Shown here: in pieces, positions 3,871 through 25,479 of the stretch
Position numbering within the stretch: position 1 is the first letter of the stretch
Layout of the letters: each line of letters opens with the position of its first letter
Assembly: GCF_003290025.1 (NCBI RefSeq)
Contig: NZ_QNHG01000001.1
Span: forward strand, 13,462-77,461
DNA: 64,000 nucleotides
Source of the DNA: Pseudogemmobacter bohemicus
GTDB taxonomy: Bacteria > Pseudomonadota > Alphaproteobacteria > Rhodobacterales > Rhodobacteraceae
Direction: 5' to 3'
The notes under the pieces: generated by a model
Told to the model about the DNA's origin: nothing
The model's database searches: none
The model's input: the letters and a program-made list of their open reading frames with translations, nothing else
Made by a program: the position numbers and the translations under genes

Positions 3871-6800
3871 TTGACCTTTGACCCCGCCCCCTTCTTATCG
3901 TGCTGCGTCTCGGTTGATCTGGAGGTCGACCCGAAATCTGCGCGGATCTTTGCCTTTGCCGCAGTCCGGGAAGAGCGGTCTTTGGCTCACAAAGGGGCAG
4001 CGATTGACCCTGCGCTGGATCGGCTGGAGGCGCTCTGCGATGGGGCGGCACATCTGGTTGGCCACAACGTCCTGCGCCATGACCTGCCGCATCTGGTGGC
4101 CAACCGCGCGCGGCTGGCGGGGTTGGGGGCGGCCGCGATCGACACGCTTTGGCTGAACCCCTTGGCCTTTCCGCGCAATCCCTACCACCATCTGGTCAAG
4201 CATTATCAGGACGGGCGGCTGCAGGTCGGGCATGTGAATGACCCAGAACAGGACGCGCGGCTGGCGCTGCAGGTGCTGTCCGATCAGATCGCGGCCTTTT
4301 CACGGTTGGGGCAAGACGTGCCGGATGCGGTGCTTGCCTATCATCATTTGACGACGCGGGGCGAGGCCTCGGGCGGGTTCGATGCGTTGTTCCAATCCTT
4401 GCGCGGTCCTGCGCCGGGTGAAGCTGCTGCCCATGCCGCCATCCGTCGCCTGCTGGACGGCCGCGCCTGCAATCATCGGCTAGACCAGACGCTGGGTCGC
4501 CTGTCCGATCCGCGCAATGGCTGGCCGATGGCCTATGCGCTGTCGTGGATTTCGGTGGCGGGTGGGGACTCGGTCATGCCGCCCTGGGTGCGGATGCAGT
4601 TCCCGCAGGCGGGGCGGATCGTGCGGCACTTGCGCGACACCAATTGCGGCGATCCGACCTGCGGCTGGTGCGTTGAGAAGAATAACCCCAATGCCGCGTT
4701 GAAACGCTGGTTCGGTTTTCCGTCCTTTCGACCTCAGCCGGTTGATGACATGGGTCGCCCGTTGCAGGAGCGGATTGTGGCCGAGGCGATGGCAGGCAAA
4801 TCCGTGCTGGGCATCCTGCCCACTGGCACGGGCAAATCGGTCTGCTATCAGATCCCGGCGCTGTCGCGGTTCGACAAGACCGGGGCGCTTACGGTGGTGA
4901 TTTCGCCGCTGGTCGCGCTGATGGCCGATCAGGTGCAGGGGCTGGCGCGAGCGGGGATATCGGCGGCGGTCACGGTGAACGGCATGCTGTCGCTGCCGGA
5001 ACGTCATGACGCGCTGGAAAAGGTGCGGATGGGCGATGCGGCGATGCTGCTGATCTCGCCGGAACAGTTGCGGTCACCGTCGATCCGTACGGTGCTGCAA
5101 CAACGCGAGGTCGGGCTTTGGGTGCTGGACGAGGCGCATTGCGTCAGCAAATGGGGCCACGATTTCCGGCCCGACTACCGCTACGTCAGCCGTTTTATCA
5201 GGGAATTCTCAGGCGATAGCCCAGCGCCCGTCCTGTGCCTGACCGCCACGGCCAAGCCGGAAGTGGTGCGCGACATCCGCGACCACTTCCAGACGCGCCT
5301 TGGGGTGGACCTGATGCTACTGGATGGGGGCGCGGTGCGCACCAACCTGTCCTTCGCGGTGCTGCCCACGCAGAAGGCGACCAAGCTGACCGACATCCTG
5401 TCGGCAATCGAGGCGAACCTTCCGCCCGAAGGCGCCTCGGGGGCTGTGGTCTATTGTGCAACCCGTGGGGCGACGGAAAGGGTAGCGGAGTTCCTGAAAG
5501 GGCAGGGGCTGGCGGCTGATTACTTCCACGCAGGGTTACCGCCTGACCGAAAGCGCGATGTGCAAGAGGCGTTTCGCACCGGCCAGTTGCGGGTGATCGC
5601 CGCGACCAACGCTTTTGGCATGGGGATCGACAAGCCCGATATCCGGCTGGTCGTTCATGGCGACATTCCGGGCTCCTTGGAAAACTACCTGCAAGAGGCA
5701 GGGCGCGCCGGTCGGGATCGCGCGCCCGCCAATTGTGTGCTGCTGTTCAGCCCCGAGGATGTTGAGCGGCAATTCTCGCTGTCGGCGCGCTCGCGTCTGG
5801 CCCGGCATGAGATCGGCGCGATCCTGAAGGCGTTGAGGCGGATGGAAAAGCACAAGTCGGGCGAAGTGGTTGCCACGCCGGGCGAGATCGTGCGCGAGGA
5901 GAAGGATCAGGAGTTCGAGCGCGACAAGACCACCGATGACACCCGCGTGAAAACCGCTGTAGCTTGGCTGGAGGAAGCGACGCTGCTTTCGCGCGAGGAG
6001 AACCGGGTGCAGGTGTTTCCGTCGTCCTTGCGAATCCGGTTGGTTGATGAGGCGGCGGCCATCCTGGAGCGGGCGCAGATCACCGGCGTTCGGCGCACCC
6101 AATTGATGGACCTCGTGCGCAACGTGATGAACGCGCCTGTCGATGCAGGGGTTTCGACAGATGACCTAACGGGCGCTTGCGGCTTGTCAGGGCGCGAGTT
6201 GCACCGGGCCTTTGCCGATCTGGAGGCGCTGGGCATCGCCAGCAACGACACGGGCATCACGGTTTATGTGCATCTGGGTGTAGAGGATGCCTCGGCCCGC
6301 CGTCTGGATCACGCAGGCCGGATGGAGGCTGACCTGATTGCCCTGATGCAAGAGGCGGTGCCGGATGCCGAAGGAGCCGAGGCGCAACCCTTGAACCTGA
6401 CCGAGACGTGCCAGGCCTTGCGCGACAAGGGTCATGTGCAGGTGCGCCCCGATCTGATGGAAACCATCCTGCGTGGCATGGCCCAAGATGGGCGTGATCA
6501 GGATGGCGGCAGGGGCAACCTGACCCTGCGCAAGGTCAGCCGCAACACGATCTTCGTGCGGCTGGAGCGGTCATGGCTTGTGGTCGCCCGGACGGCTGAA
6601 CTGCGGCGGCAGGGTGCGCAGGCACTTCTCGCTCATATGACGGGCAAGGTCTCTAAGGGCACGCGCGGCAAGGATATTCAGGTCGAAACCACCCTTGGCG
6701 CGATGCTGGATGCGCTGAACGGCGACGCGCTGCTCAGGGCCGAGGTCAAGGACATGACCCGCCTGATGGACCGTGCGCTCTTGTGGCTGCACGAACAGCA

Positions 6801-8829
6801 GGTGGCCACCTTGGGTCGGGGCCTGACGGTGTTCCGCCCGGCGATCACGGTGCATCTGAATCCCAAGGGCGGGCCATTCACCGTGCAGCACTTTGCACCC
6901 CTCGAAGAGCACTACGGCGAGACAACGATCCAGACCCATGTGATGGCCGCCTATGCTGAAAAGGGGCTGGAGGCGATGGATCAGGCCCAGCGCCTGTCGG
7001 AAGATTACTTCGTGCTGGACCGCGACGCTTTCCTGCGCCGATGGCTGCCGGGGCGCGGCACGGAAATCCGGCGCCAGACGACGGGCACGTCATGGCGCAC
7101 GATTGTCGATGCGCTCGACAATCCAGTGCAGGCCGAGATCGTGCGCGATGACCGCGAACAGACCAACGTGCTGGTGATGGCAGGGCCGGGGTCGGGCAAG
7201 ACCCGAGTGCTGGTGCATCGCATCGCCTATCTGATCCGCGTGAAGCGCGAAGACCCGCGCGGCATTCTGGTGCTGACTTACAACCGCCACGCGGCGGCTG
7301 AGATCCGCGAACGCCTGCGCCGCCTGATCGGGGATGACGCGGCGGGGGTGACGGTGTCGACCTGCCACGCGCTGGCGATGCGGCTGATGGGGGCAAGCTT
7401 TGCAGGTGACCACGAGGGCCCGCGCGACTTTGACGGGATCGTCATGCAGGCGGTGGCCCTCTTGCGCGGCGATGGCCTTACCAAGCCCGAGGCCGAGGCC
7501 CTGCGCGAGACGCTGATCCAGGGCTATCGCTGGCTCTTGGTGGACGAATACCAAGACATCGGCCCCGAGGAATACGCCCTGATCGGCGCCGTGGCGGGGC
7601 GGTCGCTCGAGGATGACCTGCGCATCAGCCTCTTTGCCGTGGGCGATGATGACCAGAACATCTACGCCTTCGCCGGGGCCAGCATCGACTTCATTCGCCG
7701 TTTTGAGGCCGATTATGCCGCCAAACCGGTCTGGCTGACGGAAAACTACCGCTCCACCGCCGATATCATCGCGGCGGCAAACGCCGTGATTGCCCCAGCG
7801 GCCCAGCGCATGAAGGCGGGTCACGACATCACGGTGAACCGCGCCCGTGCCAAGGCGATGCCGGGCGGCGATTGGGCGGCGCTGGACCCGGTGGCGCAGG
7901 GGCGCGTCACCCTGCTGGGCGCCGGGGGCGATGCCGCGCAGGCGGTGGCCGCGCTGGACGAACTGCAGCGCCTCTCAAGGCTGGACCCCGATTGGTCATG
8001 GCGGCGCTGCGCCGTGATTGCCCGCGACTGGCGGCGGCTGGAACCTGTTCGCGCCTATGCCGAGGCGCTGGGCATCCCCATCGACATGGCGAATGAGAAG
8101 CCGCTTACCCTGTGGCGCATGCGCGAGATGCAGGGCTTCGTTCGTACCCTGTTGGCAGATCGCAGCCGGCTGCTGACCATCTCTGATCTGGTCGCGATCC
8201 TGAACGCGCAGCCGCAATCTCGCTGGACCGACCTGATAGGCGAAGGCATTGGCACCCTCGCACGCGAACTGGTCGAAAAGGCCGCCCCGGTTCCTGACAT
8301 TGTCCAATGGTTCGGCGAATGGGCCCGGGATGTGCGTGGCGAACAGCGGGGGCTGCTGCTGATGACCGCCCACCGCGCCAAGGGGCTAGAGTTCGACCAT
8401 GTCGCGATCCTGAACGGCGGCTGGGATCGCCCCTCGCGCGGCGAAGATGCCGACGCCCCACGCCGCCTGTTCTATGTCGCCATGACGCGGGCGCGGTCCA
8501 CGCTGACCGTACTGACCGACGGACCGCACGCCTTCGTGCAGCCCGGTGACGCTGTCCTTTCCCGCCGCGTCACCCCCGACGCCGCCGCCTTGCCACGCGC
8601 CCGCCTGCGCTATGTGCCGCCCGACCCGAAGCTGGTGGACCTGTCCTTTGCCGGACGTCTGCGGCCGGGTGATCCGTCGCTGTCCGCCATCGCCGCCGCC
8701 AGCCCGGGCGACGCGGTTCAACTTATCCGCGATGGCGACCGCTGTCGGATCGACAACGCCCAAGGCCAAACCCTTGTCGACGATCTCGGTCGATGCGACA
8801 GCGCCATTCACGATCTGGCGGATTGCTAG
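3871..8829 (+). CDS. Exonuclease-RecQ-UvrD triple-fusion helicase, 3' end truncated
   Basis: This very large protein (1652 residues as read) joins three modules. Residues about 10-130 resemble a DEDD exonuclease: DLE at 16-18, GHN...D71, and a last motif NDPEQDA near 128 in which the usual His is not at its normal place. Residues about 310-700 are a RecQ helicase with TGTGKS (about 320), DEAHC (about 420) and a motif [11 protein letters not shown]. Residues about 1090-1560 are a UvrD-type helicase with GPGSGKT (about 1104), [15 protein letters not shown] and YVAMTRAR. The start is TTG at 3871 because a stop lies two codons upstream. The final residues after about 1635 do not belong to the family: they are the antisense of an hsdR fragment. 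The protein could unwind and trim DNA in repair or phage defence. Confidence 0.85.
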
Positions 8830-17120: not shown

Positions 17121-18050
17121 ATGATGGCGGATCCGCTGAGCCAGATCGTGACCTTGCTTCGCCCCGGTGCGCCCTATGCCAAAATCGCGAGCGCCTCCGG
17201 TGCCTGGCGCGTGCGGCGGGACGAGGACGGCATCGTCTTCTACAATCTGACCCTTGCGGGGCGAGCGCTGCTGGAGGTCGACGAGCGACCGCCGGTTCTG
17301 CTGGAGGAAGGCGACTTCGCCCTGATCCCTGCCGCGCGGCGGTTCACCCTCTCAAGCCTGGAGCCGGCGCTGCCGCAAGGACGGTTCTCTGAACCCGTCC
17401 CGATCGCCCCCGGACAGGTCCGCATCGGTGACCCTGACCTGCCGGTCACGACGCAGTCACTGGTCGGCCACTGCACCTTTGCCGCGCGGGATGCCGGGCT
17501 GCTGCTCACTCTCCTCCCCGATCTTGTGGTGATCCGGGGTGAGGCGCGGCTGGCCATGCTGACCCGGCTGGTCGCGGACGAGGCACGAGCGACGCGGCCC
17601 GGGCGCGAGGTGGTGCTGGAACGGTTACTCGAGGTTCTGCTGATCGAGGCCTTCCGCGCTTCGGGCGGCACTACTGCGCCGCCCGGCCTGTTGCGGGGCC
17701 TCAGCGATCCGCATCTCTCCATTGCCCTGCGCGCTTTGCATGAGAACCCGGCGCGCCCCTGGACCGTGGCGGAACTCGCCCGTGCGGCGGGTCTGTCGCG
17801 CTCCGCCTTCTTCACCCGGTTCGAGCGCGAGGTTGGTCGCGCGCCGATGGCCTATCTGACCGGCTGGCGGATGAGCCTCGCCAGGGACCGGTTGCGGCGC
17901 GGCGATGGCAGCCTGACCGAGATCGGCGCAGCCCTGGGCTATGGTTCGGCCAGCGCGTTCAACACCGCCTTCGCGCGCGAGGTTGGTCAGCCGCCGGGGC
18001 AATATGCGATGTCTATTGCCGGAATGGTGCGGGAAGAAGCCCCCGCCTGA
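17121..18050 (+). CDS. AraC-family transcriptional regulator (cupin_6 type)
   Basis: A 309-residue regulator. The N-terminal half (about 1-180) is a cupin-type effector domain with LLEEGDFALIP, of the subfamily seen in regulators of divergent oxidoreductase genes. The C-terminal half has two helix-turn-helix motifs: WTVAELARAAGLSRSAFFTRF (about 215-235) and TEIGAALGYGSASAFNTAF (about 263-282). Two adjacent ATG codons (17121, 17124) could start it. Its divergent neighbour, the SDR, is the likely target. Confidence 0.9.
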   Translation: MMADPLSQIVTLLRPGAPYAKIASASGAWRVRRDEDGIVFYNLTLAGRALLEVDERPPVLLEEGDFALIPAARRFTLSSLEPALPQGRFSEPVPIAPGQVRIGDPDLPVTTQSLVGHCTFAARDAGLLLTLLPDLVVIRGEARLAMLTRLVADEARATRPGREVVLERLLEVLLIEAFRASGGTTAPPGLLRGLSDPHLSIALRALHENPARPWTVAELARAAGLSRSAFFTRFEREVGRAPMAYLTGWRMSLARDRLRRGDGSLTEIGAALGYGSASAFNTAFAREVGQPPGQYAMSIAGMVREEAPA

Positions 18051-18223
18051 GGAAGGGCATAGTCCGTCCCGGCCCTTAGCCGCCGTTCAGCCCTGCCGCA
18101 TGCTGTGCGACGACATCCCTGCAAGCCGCCGCTCAGAGGGCGCGCAGCGAAGCTGCTCGTCGCCACTGAAGTTGTGCGAGGCGAAGTATGAGTGTTTCTT
18201 GCCCTTCATCGGAGAACAGGCTT

Positions 18224-18277
18224 GAAGCGGGTATGACACCCGCTTAAACTTTGCGAAGCGGGTGTCATACCCGCTTC
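18224..18277. promoter_or_regulatory. Tandem nested palindrome upstream of a MerR-like gene
   Basis: Two 22-nt arms (18224-18245 and 18256-18277) form a perfect inverted repeat around a 10-nt AT-rich spacer. Each arm is itself a palindrome of the form AAGCGGGT-N5-ACCCGCTT, so the block holds two identical operators facing each other. It ends 44 bp before the MerR-like start codon. It could act as a double operator or as a strong cruciform. Confidence 0.75.
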
Positions 18278-18321
18278 GTCGCAACAAGAGGGCATCATAC
18301 CCATTCAGGAGCTTAGCGATC

Positions 18322-18711
18322 ATGATCCCTGCGGGACGGGTACAGATATTGACAGGCCTGACCGCCAATCAACTACGGGAGTGGGCTCATCGGCGCGATC
18401 TCGTTCCACCCGATGTCGAGGCCGGCGGTCCGGGTCGGCCCGCGCTCTATAGCTGGCAAACAGTTTTGCTGCTGCGCATTGCTGTGGTTCTGCGCGAGCG
18501 GTTCAGGATTGAGTTGCAGGCACACAAGGAACTGCTGCACGCGCTGCACGAACTTCTTTCGGGTGTGCCCTTTCCGGCGCTACGGGGTGGCGTTCTGGCG
18601 TTGCGAGCCATGGAGCATGGCGAGCTCCTCTCTGAAGGCATGGCTCGTGTTGGCGTGGGTGTCCGAGGCATGGCTGGACGAGATGCCCTATTCCATCCTG
18701 TCGGCGCATGA
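18322..18711 (+). CDS. MerR-like DNA-binding protein, probably frameshifted
   Basis: The ATG at 18322 follows CAGGAG. Residues about 1-60 (GRVQILTGLTANQLREWAHRRDLVPPDVE, then RPALYSWQTVLLLRIAVVLR) look like a MerR-type winged helix. The frame drifts into low-complexity Gly/Arg/Val after about 18620 and stops at 18711, whereas the +1 frame from about 18680 to 18904 reads as a normal helical protein (LSAHELERAARYFNEIDLTTL...). I therefore suspect one frameshift and an original gene of 18322-18904. It probably controls itself and perhaps the large gene downstream through the tandem palindrome. Confidence 0.55.
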   Translation: MIPAGRVQILTGLTANQLREWAHRRDLVPPDVEAGGPGRPALYSWQTVLLLRIAVVLRERFRIELQAHKELLHALHELLSGVPFPALRGGVLALRAMEHGELLSEGMARVGVGVRGMAGRDALFHPVGA

Positions 18712-18904
18712 GCTGGAGCGGGCAGCGAGATACTTCAACGAGATCGATCTAACGACGCTGGTGCTCGGACGAGCCCGCAACAAAGAGTACTCCCGCTGGG
18801 GGTTCGCTTCATATTGCTCGGAGGTTCATGGCAAGAACCGGCCTGCACTCCCGCGGCTCTTCGAGGAGGAGCATAACGCTTTGTTTGCGAATTTAGGGAG
18901 GTAG

Positions 18905-19301
18905 TTTTCTGTTTCAACGCGGCATCATCACAATCGTAGGTGCAACGTCAACATACGCGGTCCTTTGCACGCCTTGCGTCGAGGGCAGGACCGACGGGGG
19001 TCAACAACTCTGGATCAACGATAGAATTACCGCTCCCGCCGCGCCCCGCAAGGAGTTGCCACGGCTCTATCTGCAAACATTTTGCCCTAGTTCTCTTTCA
19101 AATTCGCCCATAGGTGCGGGGCGCTCTATCGATCAGCTCCGACAGAACGGAAAAGCGTGCGCGCGGGCCCTGCAATGCCATGTCAACGATCCGTGCGGCT
19201 AGCTACTATAAAATCGGTCTGCCACGTCGGAAAAGTCGAATTGGTAGCCAAATGAAAACATTGATGGAGCGTTCTGACGGTAGACCATCTAAAAGGATTC
19301 C
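18905..19301. other. Gene-free leader of the large STAND-like gene
   Basis: About 400 bp without a convincing gene. It contains an AT-rich TATAAAAT at about 19207-19214 that could be a -10 box. The stretch ends with the ribosome binding site AAAGGATTCC before the ATG at 19302. Nothing else is recognised. Confidence 0.35.
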
Positions 19302-22300
19302 ATGCAGTTGTTCGGTTCAGGCCCACGTCTCGAAGCTCCTAGCGGTGACCCTGCTCGCCAGGCGGTTCCGGCGTTACGTGGCTATGCCTACCAGCTATAT
19401 GTCTCCGCGCTCGCGTGGCTGGCGTTATCTGATGGCGAGATACTTTATCTGGAAGTCGCGGAGGATTATGCCATCGCGACACGCGAGGCGCTGACCGGCA
19501 CGCAGGTCAGGGATACCAAGGGAAGTGGAAGAATCACGCTGCAGTCCGACTGGGCCCGGAGCACGATCGACTCCTACGTTGATCTCGTCATGCGCAATCC
19601 GGGACGTGTGGTCTCTCTCCACTATCTGACCACTTCTGCGATCGGGCTGGAGCGTGAGGGGGGCCACCGTGTCAATGGCGCGCCCGCTCTCGACTATTGG
19701 CGACGGGCAGCGACGGGCGCGGATTTAGGCCAGTTGAGAGGGCTGATCGAGAATCTCGACTTAAAGGAGGCAACTTCTAGCTATCTCGCGTCGCTGTCGG
19801 ACGATGCATTTCGGACCGAGTTCTTGCAACGCATTCATTGGCATTGCGGGGCTCCCGGTCTGGCCGACTTAAGGGCGGACCTTGAGGCTGGGGTAGTCGA
19901 ATATGTCGCATCAGCGCGCCAACTATCGAGCCAGACCGCGCGCAGCGTGATGCCGATAGTGCTGGAGCGGATACTGATGACGGCGGTATCCGAAGGAGCC
20001 CGTGCACTTCGGCGGGCGGACCTTCTACTGCTCATCGACGAGGCGGCGCTTGTCGCGGTCCCCATCGAGCAACTGGCATATGTATTCCAAGCCGGGATGC
20101 CGGCCAGAGCTATCACGCGCACGCAGTTGCTGACACCGGTCAACGACCTGCCAATGCCGGCGGTGAGGGCATCACGCGATGCGCTGGTAGCAGCAGTGGA
20201 TGCAGCGCGCTGCGCCTGCGGATTGGCGATCGCAAGCGGGGCGACGGGACTTGGAAAGTCTCTGGCGGCGCGCATGGTCGCAGCACGGACCGGTAGGCCT
20301 TGGTTTGTCGTAGACTTTCGGTATCTATCCCCCACCGAGACTACCTCTCGGCTAAACCATCTTCGCGGCGAGATTGCAGCCTCGACCACACGAGACATTA
20401 TCCTGGACGATTTGAATGGGCTGGACGATCCGATGGTGCGAGACGCTCTCGCAAGCCTGCTATCGGCCCTAAGGCGGCGCGATGCAACCGCGATAGTTAC
20501 CACCTATCGCAGTCCCGCCAACACCACGTTGCAGCAGCTTGTGCCGGAAGCCGCCGCAACCGTTGAGGTTCCCTATCTGGATGAAGAGGAAGTTGCCGAA
20601 CTTGTCGTCCAGACCGGTGGCGATCCCAAGTATGTAAGGGCGGTCTACCATGCCACGGCCAATGGGCATCCACAAATGACCATGGCGGCACTCCTACACC
20701 TAAGGCGCACGCAGTGGTCTCGGCAGGCACTCGCGGCGGTGTTCGGCGGACAGCTACATTCCGAGCTGGGCGCAGAACGGCGCGCAGTACGCGAGCGGCT
20801 GATCAGTGCACTGCCAGTCGATGCCCAAACACTACTTTTCCGCGCAAGCTTGATCCGCGGTGGATTCGATCGTCGCCTTGCGATTGCAATCGCCAGTCTG
20901 GATCCAGCAGTTCCGCGCGGCGGCCTCGTCCTCGACCAACTGATCGGTCCATGGATTGAGCCGTTCCGCCGCAGTAGGTTTCGGGTCTCACCGATGCTCG
21001 AGAATGCGGCAGACGAAGTACTCTCGAGGGAAGAGTGTCGGGCTATCCACCGCTGCGTCGCCGAAGCGACTATGATGGCTGACGAGGGGATGGACGCGGT
21101 CGATGCGTGGGTGGCGATGCACCACGCCCTACGCAGCGAGGATACAGATCTCGTTGTCGGATTCGCCCATAGCGTGATCACATGCAATGTGGAGATGATT
21201 GATGCTATCGCTCCGTTCCTGACCGAGCTCATGTACCTTCCGGTCGATGTGCCGATCTTCCCGAGCAACTCGTCCGCTTCCGCGATGATGCGCCTCGCCC
21301 AACTTCTTGTCCTGCTCCCCTATGGATCGGCCGATCAGGCCCATGCTGTTTTGCGAGCGTTGGAAGCGGAGCGGCTCGATATTCAGGGCGTGGCGCTATT
21401 CGAGGGGTTCGCGCTCTCCAAGTTGCTGCTGCACCCACGTGCGAGTGAGCTGTTTCCCGATTGGTTGGAAATCCTGTTGCGTTTCGACCAGCTCTGTCTG
21501 GCGGAGCCGCGGATAGCGGAGGCGAATTCGCGATTCACCTCAAAGGCCGGAGGAACTCCGCACGTGACCGGAGTCCTCTTCGCTGGCCAGCTGCGGAGCA
21601 TTAAGACAATTGCGAGCTTCCGCGCGATCATTGAGCGCCTACACTGTGAGGACCCCGCGACTCGCGAGCGTCTACTCTCCTCGTTCCAACCAGGGCGTGG
21701 CGATATCTCGGTCTTCGTCAATCACGGGTGGATGAGGGAATCCGGTAGCGAGAACTTCGACTGGGAGGCCGCTCAGCGGGACTATGGTACCGCGTTCGAA
21801 ATAGCCATGCAGTGGGGAAACAAGATGCTCGCCTCGCGCTGCGCGATCGCCCAAGCTATGTGCATCGACGAGAACGGGAACGATCCAGACCGCGCGCTCG
21901 CTTACCTGTCGCAGGTAGAGGCACGTATCGGGTGCCAAGTCGTATTGGGTCGTGCGAGAGCAAAAATCCATTGGCGTCGGCGCGATCACGCAGCTGCGCT
22001 GCCACTTCTTACAGCAGCGGCAGAGGTTGGTGGTCAGGATGCGATTGAGCACGCCTTCATTGCGCGGGAGGCCGGCATCAGCGCGGCGACGCTCAATGAC
22101 TGGGAAGCAGCACGGCAATGGTTCGAGCGGGCGCATGTCGCAGCTGCAAGCGCGTCGGAGCTGCCGTCGGTGAGGGCTATGGCCATCGGCCTGCTCGCTG
22201 ACACGGCCCAGGCGGCCTTCAAGGCCGGACGGCCGGACATCTCAATTCTTAAGATGCGCGACGCTTTGACGACGCTACCCAAAATTGACGCCGAGGGGGT

Positions 22301-23306
22301 GATTGCCGAGGCGCACTGCCATCGCGTCGTTAGGCATGGCCTGCTCTGGCTCTACCAACAGATCACAGGTGTATTGGACGATGAGGAAACCATTTACTTG
22401 CCGGGTGCCGCTAGCAACCCCGAGCCACTGGATGCAATCAGGTCGCATCCAGTGGTGGCGCTGGATATCTCGTTCTATTTACTCGCCGCAGCGGACGAGG
22501 CGCTAGACGAACCGACTGGCTTCTATCGGGCGTTCCGGGACCATCTCGTGGTAGGCTCGGTGCTGTCCTCGGAAATTTCTGCAACGATCACTGACGACCG
22601 CAAGGCAATCAGCACGCACGATCCGACTGACTTCGTCGCGCGAGTACGGCGACACGCCTCGATGGCTGGGATGGTATCCTCCGGCGAGGCGTACGAGTAC
22701 GCTGCGGATGTGGTCAACCCGAGGCGCGGGACGATCCCCTTAGTGTCAATCGATGAGAATGCACTGGAGGATCATCTCCGTTTCGCCGAAGACTATTTGC
22801 TCAGCTTCGCTACCGGAGCGGCTATGGCGCGAGAGTTTGGAGCAATCGACTCCATCGTGGAGCAGGGCCTTGCCGCTCCAGAGGTATCCGCGCTGCATCC
22901 GCTGCTCCGGCGCATGGTGGGGGACATCAGCGCGCTAACATCTGATCGCGAAGGCGCAGCCAGTTCCATCTGGACAATCCGCGAAGACCTGTCGGGTCGC
23001 CCCGTCGAATTCTGCTGGACGGCAATGTGGCTCCTTATCCATGCAAGCAATTCGCGGCTACGTGATGGTGTAGTCGAGCCGCTGTTGGCATGGATTTTCG
23101 CGGGTGCCGATCACTTGGTCCGCAAAGCGCGGTTCCTATTGTCGAGTCCGGTGACCACAGCTCCACCCGTAGAGGAAATACTTGTAGTGCCAGAGCGGAG
23201 TATGGCGTCGGCAGCGCGCCTGCTACTGGCGCTCTCGCCCGCCGTGGGTACAAGGCTCATACCCAAAGTACGAGACAGGCTCGAAGCCATAATTGAATCT
23301 GATTAG
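19302..23306 (+). CDS. Avs-like protein: nuclease-like domain, STAND-type NTPase, helical repeats
   Basis: A 1334-residue protein. Residues about 20-115 (ALRGYAYQLY, LYLEVAEDY with Glu51, Glu54 and Asp55, then TQVRDTK with Gln68 and Lys73) resemble the Cap4/DUF4297 nuclease core, although the Q-x-K spacing is unusual. Residues about 290-420 are a P-loop NTPase: Walker A GATGLGKS (313-320), Walker B IILDDL (366-371) and a sensor-like AIVTTYRS (397-404). From about 450 to the end the protein is helical, with TPR-like pairs at about 820-1010. This nuclease-NTPase-repeat order is that of Avs/STAND immune sensors, which detect phage proteins and then cut DNA. No partner gene is adjacent. The Avs assignment is inference; the domain order is visible. 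Confidence 0.65.
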   Translation: MQLFGSGPRLEAPSGDPARQAVPALRGYAYQLYVSALAWLALSDGEILYLEVAEDYAIATREALTGTQVRDTKGSGRITLQSDWARSTIDSYVDLVMRNPGRVVSLHYLTTSAIGLEREGGHRVNGAPALDYWRRAATGADLGQLRGLIENLDLKEATSSYLASLSDDAFRTEFLQRIHWHCGAPGLADLRADLEAGVVEYVASARQLSSQTARSVMPIVLERILMTAVSEGARALRRADLLLLIDEAALVAVPIEQLAYVFQAGMPARAITRTQLLTPVNDLPMPAVRASRDALVAAVDAARCACGLAIASGATGLGKSLAARMVAARTGRPWFVVDFRYLSPTETTSRLNHLRGEIAASTTRDIILDDLNGLDDPMVRDALASLLSALRRRDATAIVTTYRSPANTTLQQLVPEAAATVEVPYLDEEEVAELVVQTGGDPKYVRAVYHATANGHPQMTMAALLHLRRTQWSRQALAAVFGGQLHSELGAERRAVRERLISALPVDAQTLLFRASLIRGGFDRRLAIAIASLDPAVPRGGLVLDQLIGPWIEPFRRSRFRVSPMLENAADEVLSREECRAIHRCVAEATMMADEGMDAVDAWVAMHHALRSEDTDLVVGFAHSVITCNVEMIDAIAPFLTELMYLPVDVPIFPSNSSASAMMRLAQLLVLLPYGSADQAHAVLRALEAERLDIQGVALFEGFALSKLLLHPRASELFPDWLEILLRFDQLCLAEPRIAEANSRFTSKAGGTPHVTGVLFAGQLRSIKTIASFRAIIERLHCEDPATRERLLSSFQPGRGDISVFVNHGWMRESGSENFDWEAAQRDYGTAFEIAMQWGNKMLASRCAIAQAMCIDENGNDPDRALAYLSQVEARIGCQVVLGRARAKIHWRRRDHAAALPLLTAAAEVGGQDAIEHAFIAREAGISAATLNDWEAARQWFERAHVAAASASELPSVRAMAIGLLADTAQAAFKAGRPDISILKMRDALTTLPKIDAEGVIAEAHCHRVVRHGLLWLYQQITGVLDDEETIYLPGAASNPEPLDAIRSHPVVALDISFYLLAAADEALDEPTGFYRAFRDHLVVGSVLSSEISATITDDRKAISTHDPTDFVARVRRHASMAGMVSSGEAYEYAADVVNPRRGTIPLVSIDENALEDHLRFAEDYLLSFATGAAMAREFGAIDSIVEQGLAAPEVSALHPLLRRMVGDISALTSDREGAASSIWTIREDLSGRPVEFCWTAMWLLIHASNSRLRDGVVEPLLAWIFAGADHLVRKARFLLSSPVTTAPPVEEILVVPERSMASAARLLLALSPAVGTRLIPKVRDRLEAIIESD

Positions 23307-23365
23307 AAGCCACAGGGCCGCAAGCGAAGAAGCGTAAGCCGTAATCTGTAATCGTGAGACTGACA

Positions 23366-23482
23366 ATGCAGAACATCATCATCCTCGCGGGCAACATCGG
23401 CCAAGCCCCCGAAGCCATCACCACTCAGGGCGGCACCGGCATCACCCGCTTCACCCTGGCCACCTCCCGCCCCCGTTGCTGA
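23366..23482 (+). pseudogene. ssb: Truncated ssb (N-terminal OB-fold strand only)
   Basis: Thirty-eight residues (MQNIIILAGNIGQAPEA..., GGTGITRFTLATSRP) match the first strands of single-stranded DNA-binding protein, then the frame breaks at 23471 and stops. The rest of ssb (about 130 residues) is missing: the sequence continues with the reverse strand of a pRiA4b ORF-3-like gene. Such ssb copies usually belong to plasmids or conjugative islands, so this is a recombination scar. Confidence 0.8.
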
Positions 23483-24337: not shown

Positions 24338-25450
24338 TCAGCCTTGCGTCGGCTCAACCAATCTGTAGTTGGTGCTGCGGCCACCGGCATCCTCCTTCTC
24401 CAGCACCCCCCTATCAACCAGGTCCGTAATGTCGCGGAGCGCCGTGTCGGAGGAAACCTTGGTCAGCTTCGCCCATTTCGAGGATGTCAGCTTCCCCTCG
24501 AAACCATCCAGCAGACGATTGATCACGGCGCGCTGACGCTCGTTGAAAGTCTCGCCCGCCACCGTCTCCCAGAAGCGTGCCTTGTGCAGGACGTGGCGCA
24601 GAACCTCTTCGGTGCCGTCGAAGGCCCGATCCAGGCATCCGAGGAACCAATAGAGCCAGCTGGTGATGTCCAGCCCGCCCTTCTGCGTTTTCTCCAGCGT
24701 CGAGTAGTACTCTCCCCGCTCGCGCCGGATCTGAGCCGACATGCTGTAGAAGCGCTGTGAACTCCCCTCGGATCGGGCTAACGCCATATCGGCAATGGCG
24801 CGGGCGATACGGCCGTTTCCGTCCTCGAAAGGATGGATCGTCACGAACCAGAGATGGGCGATGGCAGCGCGGATGACCGGGTCCGTGCCATCGCGTCTCT
24901 CGAACCAGTCCAGGAAGGCCTGCATCTCGCCAGGCAAGCGTTCTGCCTCCGGCGCTTCGAAATGCACCCGTTCACGTCCATAAGGGCCAGAAACGACCTG
25001 CATCGGTCCGGCCTCCGGCGGGCGCCATGCGCCGACAGCGATCCGGGTCATACCACTGCGCCCAGTCGGGAATAGTGCGGCATGCCAGGCGAAAAGCCGT
25101 TCCACAGTGAGGGGAGCGATATAGTTCTGCGTGGCATCCAGCATCATCTCGACCACACCCTCGACATCACGGTCGACCGGCGCAAGCGCACCGATCTCGA
25201 TGCCGAGGCGCCGGGCAATGGAGGAACGCACCTGCTGCTTGTCCAGGTTCTCGCCCTCGATCTCGCTGGACTTCAGGACGTCCTCAGTCAGCGTCTGAAG
25301 GACGGCTTCGGCCTGCAGGTCGAAACCGAGCGCTTCCATCCGGCCGACCAAACGACCTTGGCGGTGACGAACCGCAGCCAAGGTTGTGCTGATGCCATCA
25401 CCAGCCCATGTGAAGTTGGGCCATTCGGCCTGCTGATGGATATAGGTCAT
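24338..25450 (-). CDS. Fic-family protein (class II, self-inhibited AMPylator type)
   Basis: Fic proteins usually transfer AMP to a hydroxyl side chain of a target protein. The catalytic loop HPFEDGNGRIAR (His about 206) is intact. An N-terminal inhibitory motif fitting S/T-x-x-x-E-G (SSEIEG, residues 61-66) makes this class II, in which the protein silences itself and needs no separate antitoxin. Residues 1-60 resemble DUF4172, and the C-terminus has a winged helix (LTKVSSDTALRDITDLVDRGVLEKE). I prefer the ATG at 25450, spaced 8 nt from AGGAG, over the GTG at 25456. No antitoxin gene is adjacent. Confidence 0.92.
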   Translation of the reverse strand: MTYIHQQAEWPNFTWAGDGISTTLAAVRHRQGRLVGRMEALGFDLQAEAVLQTLTEDVLKSSEIEGENLDKQQVRSSIARRLGIEIGALAPVDRDVEGVVEMMLDATQNYIAPLTVERLFAWHAALFPTGRSGMTRIAVGAWRPPEAGPMQVVSGPYGRERVHFEAPEAERLPGEMQAFLDWFERRDGTDPVIRAAIAHLWFVTIHPFEDGNGRIARAIADMALARSEGSSQRFYSMSAQIRRERGEYYSTLEKTQKGGLDITSWLYWFLGCLDRAFDGTEEVLRHVLHKARFWETVAGETFNERQRAVINRLLDGFEGKLTSSKWAKLTKVSSDTALRDITDLVDRGVLEKEDAGGRSTNYRLVEPTQG

Positions 25451-25479
25451 AATCACCGCTCCTCATGCGGCGATTATGA

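Follow-up and report, generated by a model that had tools for sequence, protein, structure and literature searches.

Avs3 combines a Cap4-type nuclease, a STAND NTPase and a repeat sensor in one chain. The accessible part of PMC11291478 names the cap4 domain of this protein, and that of PMC12198126 states that its nuclease domain dimerizes through the STAND domain once phage proteins are recognized. Here, we analyzed a stretch of 64,000 nucleotides from the 5.6 Mb genome of Pseudogemmobacter bohemicus (hereafter the window, to whose numbering the coordinates refer unless stated otherwise) and in it a gene at 19302-23306 (+ strand), whose reading frame, alignments and predicted models point to a likewise composed protein of 1334 residues: a Cap4/DUF4297-like nuclease, a STAND NTPase and a TPR-like sensor. 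As judged from predicted models and a fold search, the tripartite effector-STAND-sensor layout of Avs1-5 is present in this protein, which is shorter than the Avs3 chain (8dgc) with its 2028 residues. We consider it very probable that the product is an antiviral STAND receptor with a Cap4/DUF4297-like nuclease, which works as the only protein of its system and whose gene has moved horizontally.

Other described systems share individual parts with the window protein. The closest solved nuclease by sequence is the DUF4297 protein of HerA-DUF4297 (PDB 8xav, 8ziq, 9c1m), whose tested aspartate and glutamine positions are kept here. In that system, however, the nuclease is separate and has a HerA ATPase as its partner, whereas the window nuclease is fused to a STAND module and carries an arginine at the lysine position. 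The nuclease domain of LmuA from Lamassu (PDB 9hr5, 9nxx) is related as well. A Pfam scan of eight window neighbors found neither a HerA ATPase nor an SMC-like (LmuB) partner as in Lamassu: it returned SDR, cupin/AraC, MerR-like, PRiA4_ORF3, Fic and helicase matches, and left two neighbors without a match. The CARD-NLR-like LypB and the bNACHT proteins share the STAND ATPase, and LypB also has TPR-like repeats (accessible part of PMC13236601), but their effectors differ from that of the window protein. A literature search, which left some journals uncovered, returned no prior description of the family. As a separate observation, contig C3 of the same genome (86000-97000; locus L134:2501-5509) holds an open reading frame (ORF) for an ATPase, read as HerA-like, beside a 419-residue LmuA/DUF4297-like nuclease whose QVK motif is intact.

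The frame opens with an ATG and is intact; AAAAGGA (19291-19297, +), 4 nt before the start codon, is likely the ribosome-binding site. Relatives align with the window protein over its full length at 19-50% identity, and loci from the genome collection reach up to 70%. The ratio of nonsynonymous to synonymous substitution rates (dN/dS) was 0.10-0.14 for the window gene against each of five close relatives, values that are rough because dS is ~1.5 or more in these pairs; one of the five, L024, spans 954 residues, and a sixth pair had saturated dS. Since the relatives align over the whole protein and dN/dS is low, the gene is more than a product of chance: the frame for 1334 residues is genuine and uninterrupted, and purifying selection acts on the protein. 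The letters that the earlier note on this DNA had picked out, an N-terminal patch, the Walker A sequence GATGLGKS at residues 313-320 and IILDDL at 366-371, are all present. Its remark that codon use is less GC-biased than in the surroundings is right in direction and overstated in strength: the GC content at third codon positions is 0.662 in the receptor gene against a mean of 0.743 (standard deviation 0.053) in 43 other script-selected ORFs of the window, a weak signal of ~1.5 standard deviations, and 3 of the 43 lie lower still.

Residues 14-250 (19341-20051, +) form the nuclease-like domain, which is delimited by profile matches, alignment and model. An AlphaFold model of residues 1-620, built from an alignment of 38 sequences (the window protein and 37 relatives), reached a mean predicted local distance difference test score (pLDDT) of 88.6 and a predicted template modeling score (pTM) of 0.58. 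Within the first 120 residues, on whose fold the earlier note had let its defense reading depend, one helix is followed in the model by three strands, a second helix and a further strand, as would be expected of PD-(D/E)xK nucleases; the N-terminal domain is predicted to adopt the PD-(D/E)xK fold of a Cap4/DUF4297 nuclease. Profile searches point in the same direction: The PADLOC LmuA model matches the window protein at E 4.2e-8 over residues 20-196 and, at E ≤0.01, 28 of the 38 sequences, next to 21 for DUF4297, 19 for the NCBIfam DUF4297 antiphage model and 10 for Pfam Cap4_nuclease. The window copy itself falls outside the Cap4_nuclease matches and both sets of DUF4297 matches (NCBIfam, PADLOC) at E 0.01. 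When the PDB was searched at E up to 10 with a profile of 54 nuclease domains, just three sequences matched, each of them DUF4297 (best E 1.8e-6), and the window protein as a single query matched no PDB sequence at E 1.

The NTPase core spans approximately residues 285-480 (20154-20741, +) and is followed by a winged-helix part with the first linker helices at approximately residues 486-620 (20757-21161, +). A STAND NTPase is defined by Walker A, Walker B, a GxP motif and a winged helix in one module. On the strength of alignment, model and fold matches, we take residues 313-320, 366-371 and GHPQ at 455-458 to be the Walker A, Walker B and GxP motifs, respectively; the winged-helix region is assigned from the secondary structure of the model and from fold matches to MalT and CED-4, and its boundaries are approximate placements of our own. 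G316, G318, K319, G455 and P457 are invariant in the 38 sequences, and D370 is nearly so. The conserved motifs, the winged-helix region and the MalT/CED-4 matches together give the module predicted STAND features. In Pfam, the nSTAND models match a minority of the 38 relatives, while NACHT reaches the window protein at E 0.12, scoring 12.6 bits where the cut-off is 26.7, and 2 of the 38 at E 0.01. The sensor takes up approximately residues 621-1334 (21162-23303, +), as seen in model, alignment and fold search, and is best conserved at 851-1050. The C-terminal part was modeled as all-helical save for the winged helix at its start, with a mean pLDDT of 90.3, and Pfam TPR_12 matches the protein at E 3.9e-4, under its curated cut-off, in agreement with the long helical C-terminus with TPR-like pairs that had been read from the letters. 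A search of viral folds with the sensor gave nothing at E 0.001 or better.

When residues 1-620 were compared with the PDB by Foldseek, the first match was Avs3 bound to phage terminase (8dgc, E 3.8e-10), and the best 50 also include MalT (8bob, second), CED-4, HerA-DUF4297, LmuA and Avs4. Several results weigh against reading the protein as an antiviral receptor of this kind. Most of the remaining rows among these 50 are AAA+ or NLR-type ATPases, and the superposition on Avs3 is loose (TM score 0.28 by query, root-mean-square deviation 19.8 over 746 columns); the pTM of the model makes the placement of the domains uncertain. As a profile, residues 1-620 resemble p97/Cdc48-type AAA+ ATPases, the best 60 of 394 PDB matches all being of AAA type and none Avs. 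The sensor matches are generic TPR superhelices (e.g., Ski3, Ctr9) with no Avs chain among the best 50 listed. The window protein stays under every listed Pfam cut-off, including those of the Cap4_nuclease, NTPase and TPR models, matches DUF4297 of NCBIfam no better than at E 0.13, and has an arginine at the catalytic lysine position. Finally, no Avs model of PADLOC or NCBIfam, libraries that presumably contain such models, matched the window protein or the N-terminal halves of the 38 relatives in a search run without a positive control. For this reason, we describe the design of the protein as Avs-like without assigning it to Avs1-5. The earlier designation as an Avs-type immune sensor is accordingly supported for the design, with its domain order and Avs3 first in the fold search, and not supported for membership in an Avs family.

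By analogy with Avs3, we propose that the TPR-like sensor would most likely recognize a conserved protein from a phage or another invading element. Once its STAND module has bound ATP, the receptor would oligomerize, whereby the N-terminal Cap4/DUF4297-like nuclease domains would be brought together in pairs and could cut double-stranded DNA; this would stop the infection and probably kill or arrest the cell. Immune function, oligomerization and DNA cutting are what we infer for the receptor.

The active site bears directly on the last of these steps. In an alignment of 71 sequences, which includes short and differently built proteins, the acidic pair E51-x3-D55 (19452-19466, +) of the putative active site is invariant at both positions (71/71 each). 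These counts are partly built in, since 57 of the sequences were retrieved by a pattern that includes E51 and D55; the other 14, found without it, carry both residues as well. The second element is Q68-V-R70 (19503-19511, +), a QxK motif with arginine in place of lysine: Q68 is kept in 70/71 sequences, and position 70 is lysine in 62, arginine in eight (the window protein included) and alanine in one. An extra copy outside this count, L005, has arginine at position 70 in a separate alignment of the relatives. The nuclease mutant of HerA-DUF4297 is D40A/Q53A/K55A in the accessible part of PMC11291478. In the nuclease-profile alignment, D40, Q53 and K55 correspond to D55, Q68 and R70, so that the window protein has the aspartate and glutamine of the catalytic D/Q/K set of Cap4/DUF4297 and replaces its lysine. 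The lysine of the N-terminal patch named in the earlier note, Lys73, had to be given up as a catalytic residue: position 73 is lysine in just 4/71 sequences, and the conserved basic position is 70.

With Arg70 in place of the lysine, DNA cutting is a putative activity of the window protein, and the nuclease domain might be weak or dead in a real receptor that acts by DNA binding or as an attenuated or regulatory form. The recurrence of arginine among the 71 sequences speaks for this: On a quick tree of 51 sequences, which came with long-branch warnings, the R70 state needs at least five changes, and L024, the sister of the window protein, shares it. Yet D55 and Q68 are kept, the close relatives L019-L023 have lysine, and dN/dS of residues 1-250 (0.05-0.12 in the five pairs, likewise rough at this dS) is similar to or below that of the rest of the protein, which gives no sign of nuclease decay. 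On balance, we regard an inactive or attenuated nuclease as rather unlikely.

The distribution of the gene is patchy. Among the 13 genomes of the genus, only the window genome has it, and 3 of 390 in the order match: the window genome, one match of 30% identity over residues 12-1151 and one over residues 29-238 only. The nuclease profile is found at E 1e-10 in 4 of 394 genomes of the taxonomic family, its own included, and the full profile in 33 of 398 genomes of the phylum, all but its own being partial matches of at most 94.4 bits. An alignment-based scan of the genome collection yielded 57 loci, of which 4 have an interrupted frame and 4 more run off the contig end; a single-sequence scan of the same contigs confirmed nothing. 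Judged by the record titles of these loci, the protein family is mostly alphaproteobacterial, and the nearest rows of the tree include Hyphomicrobiales, Sphingomonadales and Rhodospirillales, which fits horizontal transfer. The phage records searched contained no match to the receptor, and none of 52 candidates from viral contigs was confirmed. The possibility, raised in the earlier note, that the homologues are chromosomal housekeeping genes in stable synteny is rejected: Twelve of the 13 genus genomes have no match, neighbors are not fixed and the surroundings are rich in defense genes.

Modularity is seen on the effector side. Effector swapping is known in defense proteins (accessible part of PMC12799240). 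The nuclease domain alone is shared by L056 and L073 (2127 and 2136 residues), by L067 (1437 residues) and by L069, L071, L072 and L075 (1253-1317 residues), which are interrelated over their remaining part; as read from these sequences, a nuclease module fused to other C-terminal parts is a case of such swapping.

The survey of homologue neighborhoods that the earlier note had proposed returned surroundings rich in matches to defense proteins. At 43 loci, it took in the nearest two ORFs of 150-750 residues per side, some of these ORFs being several kb distant; 42 loci gave any. Of the 148 ORFs obtained, 143 entered the comparison, and the size limit removed the other five. As controls served 143 ORFs out of 152 in 11 genome stretches, which came from the genus and family of the window and not from the relatives' own genomes. 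At E 1e-10 or better, the neighbors matched 318 PADLOC families and the controls 8, a tally of families rather than proteins, as one protein can match many models; no model was matched by more than two neighbor ORFs. The 25 of the 318 families that were listed include GajB, JetA, PtuA, AbiEii, SIR2, PbeA and OloA models, and parts of Gabija and Septu are among the defense genes near relatives. Annotated plasmid neighborhoods hold SIR2, a CBASS cyclase with a pore-forming effector, restriction-modification, GASH, and TIR with HEPN; an Agrobacterium tumefaciens relative lies near QatBCD and HEPN, and in Bosea QatABCD is a few kb from a relative of 70% identity. Little recognizable defense surrounds some others, e.g., in Sphingopyxis, and the Ciceribacter record is unannotated. 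Among 405 neighbor ORFs within 5 kb, the most widespread clusters occur at 4 of 52 loci, so that no fixed partner gene is evident. Partnership with a window neighbor is likewise rejected: of six neighbors searched in L004-L075, Fic, PRiA4_ORF3 and AraC recurred at one locus each, the MerR-like gene and two others at none. A suspected duplicate of the receptor beside the Bradyrhizobium copy showed no significant similarity and was discarded.

Relatives are found on plasmids and in islands, and the receptor could serve mainly in the competition between mobile elements, by keeping out other plasmids or elements for the plasmid or island that carries it, instead of phage defense. Among 72,556 plasmid records, 16 contain a match, which covers at least 80% of the query in four of them, and typing assigned 5 as conjugative, 2 as mobilizable and 9 as non-mobilizable; moreover, four Agrobacterium copies, among them a C-terminal remnant, have an integrase within a few kb. 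The neighbors, however, match anti-phage models, and the two roles overlap in a way that sequence cannot separate; we consider such exclusion as the main role improbable. In the plasmid copy of Rhizobium leguminosarum (L014:7965-12004), the match lies in a 770-residue ORF that overlaps the following 576-residue ORF by 4 nt. STAND plus TPR is a layout of regulators too, but a MalT/AfsR-like transcription regulator, suggested by the second-ranked fold match to MalT (8bob), is most improbable given that Pfam, searched at E up to 1, assigns the protein no DNA-binding domain anywhere along its length, that the whole family keeps the nuclease-type domain at the N-terminus and that no conserved target gene adjoins.

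In the window, the antiviral receptor candidate occupies a variable slot (18014-23473) between blocks shared with Paracoccus relatives. Sequence shared with Paracoccus aminovorans breaks off after 18013 and starts again at 23478, and the slot of that species, ~12 kb in size, holds another cassette with, among other genes, HamB and HamA of Hachiman (E 9.4e-201 and 4.6e-125). The longest plasmid matches of the window flanks are to Cereibacter and Paracoccus. Near the left edge of the slot (18224-18277), an inverted repeat with perfectly matching arms of 22 nt encloses a loop of 10 nt. A stretch of ~115 nt at 23356-23475 recurs several times, with 79-93% identity, within this genome and in those of congeners, and may be what is left of a mobile element. 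About 1 kb downstream of the receptor, a Fic/DUF4172 protein (24338-25456, -) matches PADLOC SoFic at E 3.5e-44. Further upstream, a 1652-residue ORF (3871-8829, +) combines DEAD and UvrD helicase domains; at 3903-8514, its DNA shares 78% identity with a gene of the RecQ family that Cereibacter plasmids carry.

Many alphaproteobacteria make gene transfer agents (GTAs). On contig C1 of the host, which also carries the receptor ~540 kb away, matches to terminase, portal and GTA_TIM lie within ~12 kb (573828-585721) and, by their sequences, constitute a GTA-like cluster; a second GTA_TIM match is on contig C3, and 12 of the 13 genus genomes have one. Since the host has terminase and portal genes, a receptor that recognizes either of these proteins would be exposed to forms of its trigger made by its own cell. 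According to the accessible part of PMC13236601, a CARD-NLR-like system controls GTA release in Caulobacter, so that a link between receptor and GTA has a precedent in another STAND family. It is a decidedly speculative idea that the family forms a separate, mostly alphaproteobacterial type of antiviral STAND receptor whose sensor tells phage packaging proteins from the terminase or portal of the host GTA, or polices GTA release, with the repeated exchange of lysine for arginine perhaps being a safety setting against self-activation.

As an antiviral STAND receptor, the protein would add to this class a coherent, widely transferred family that PADLOC and NCBIfam did not name as such and whose nuclease module is also fused to other C-terminal parts. 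Together with the resident GTA-like terminase and portal, it would allow one to study directly how receptors of this kind escape activation by phage-like machinery of their own host.

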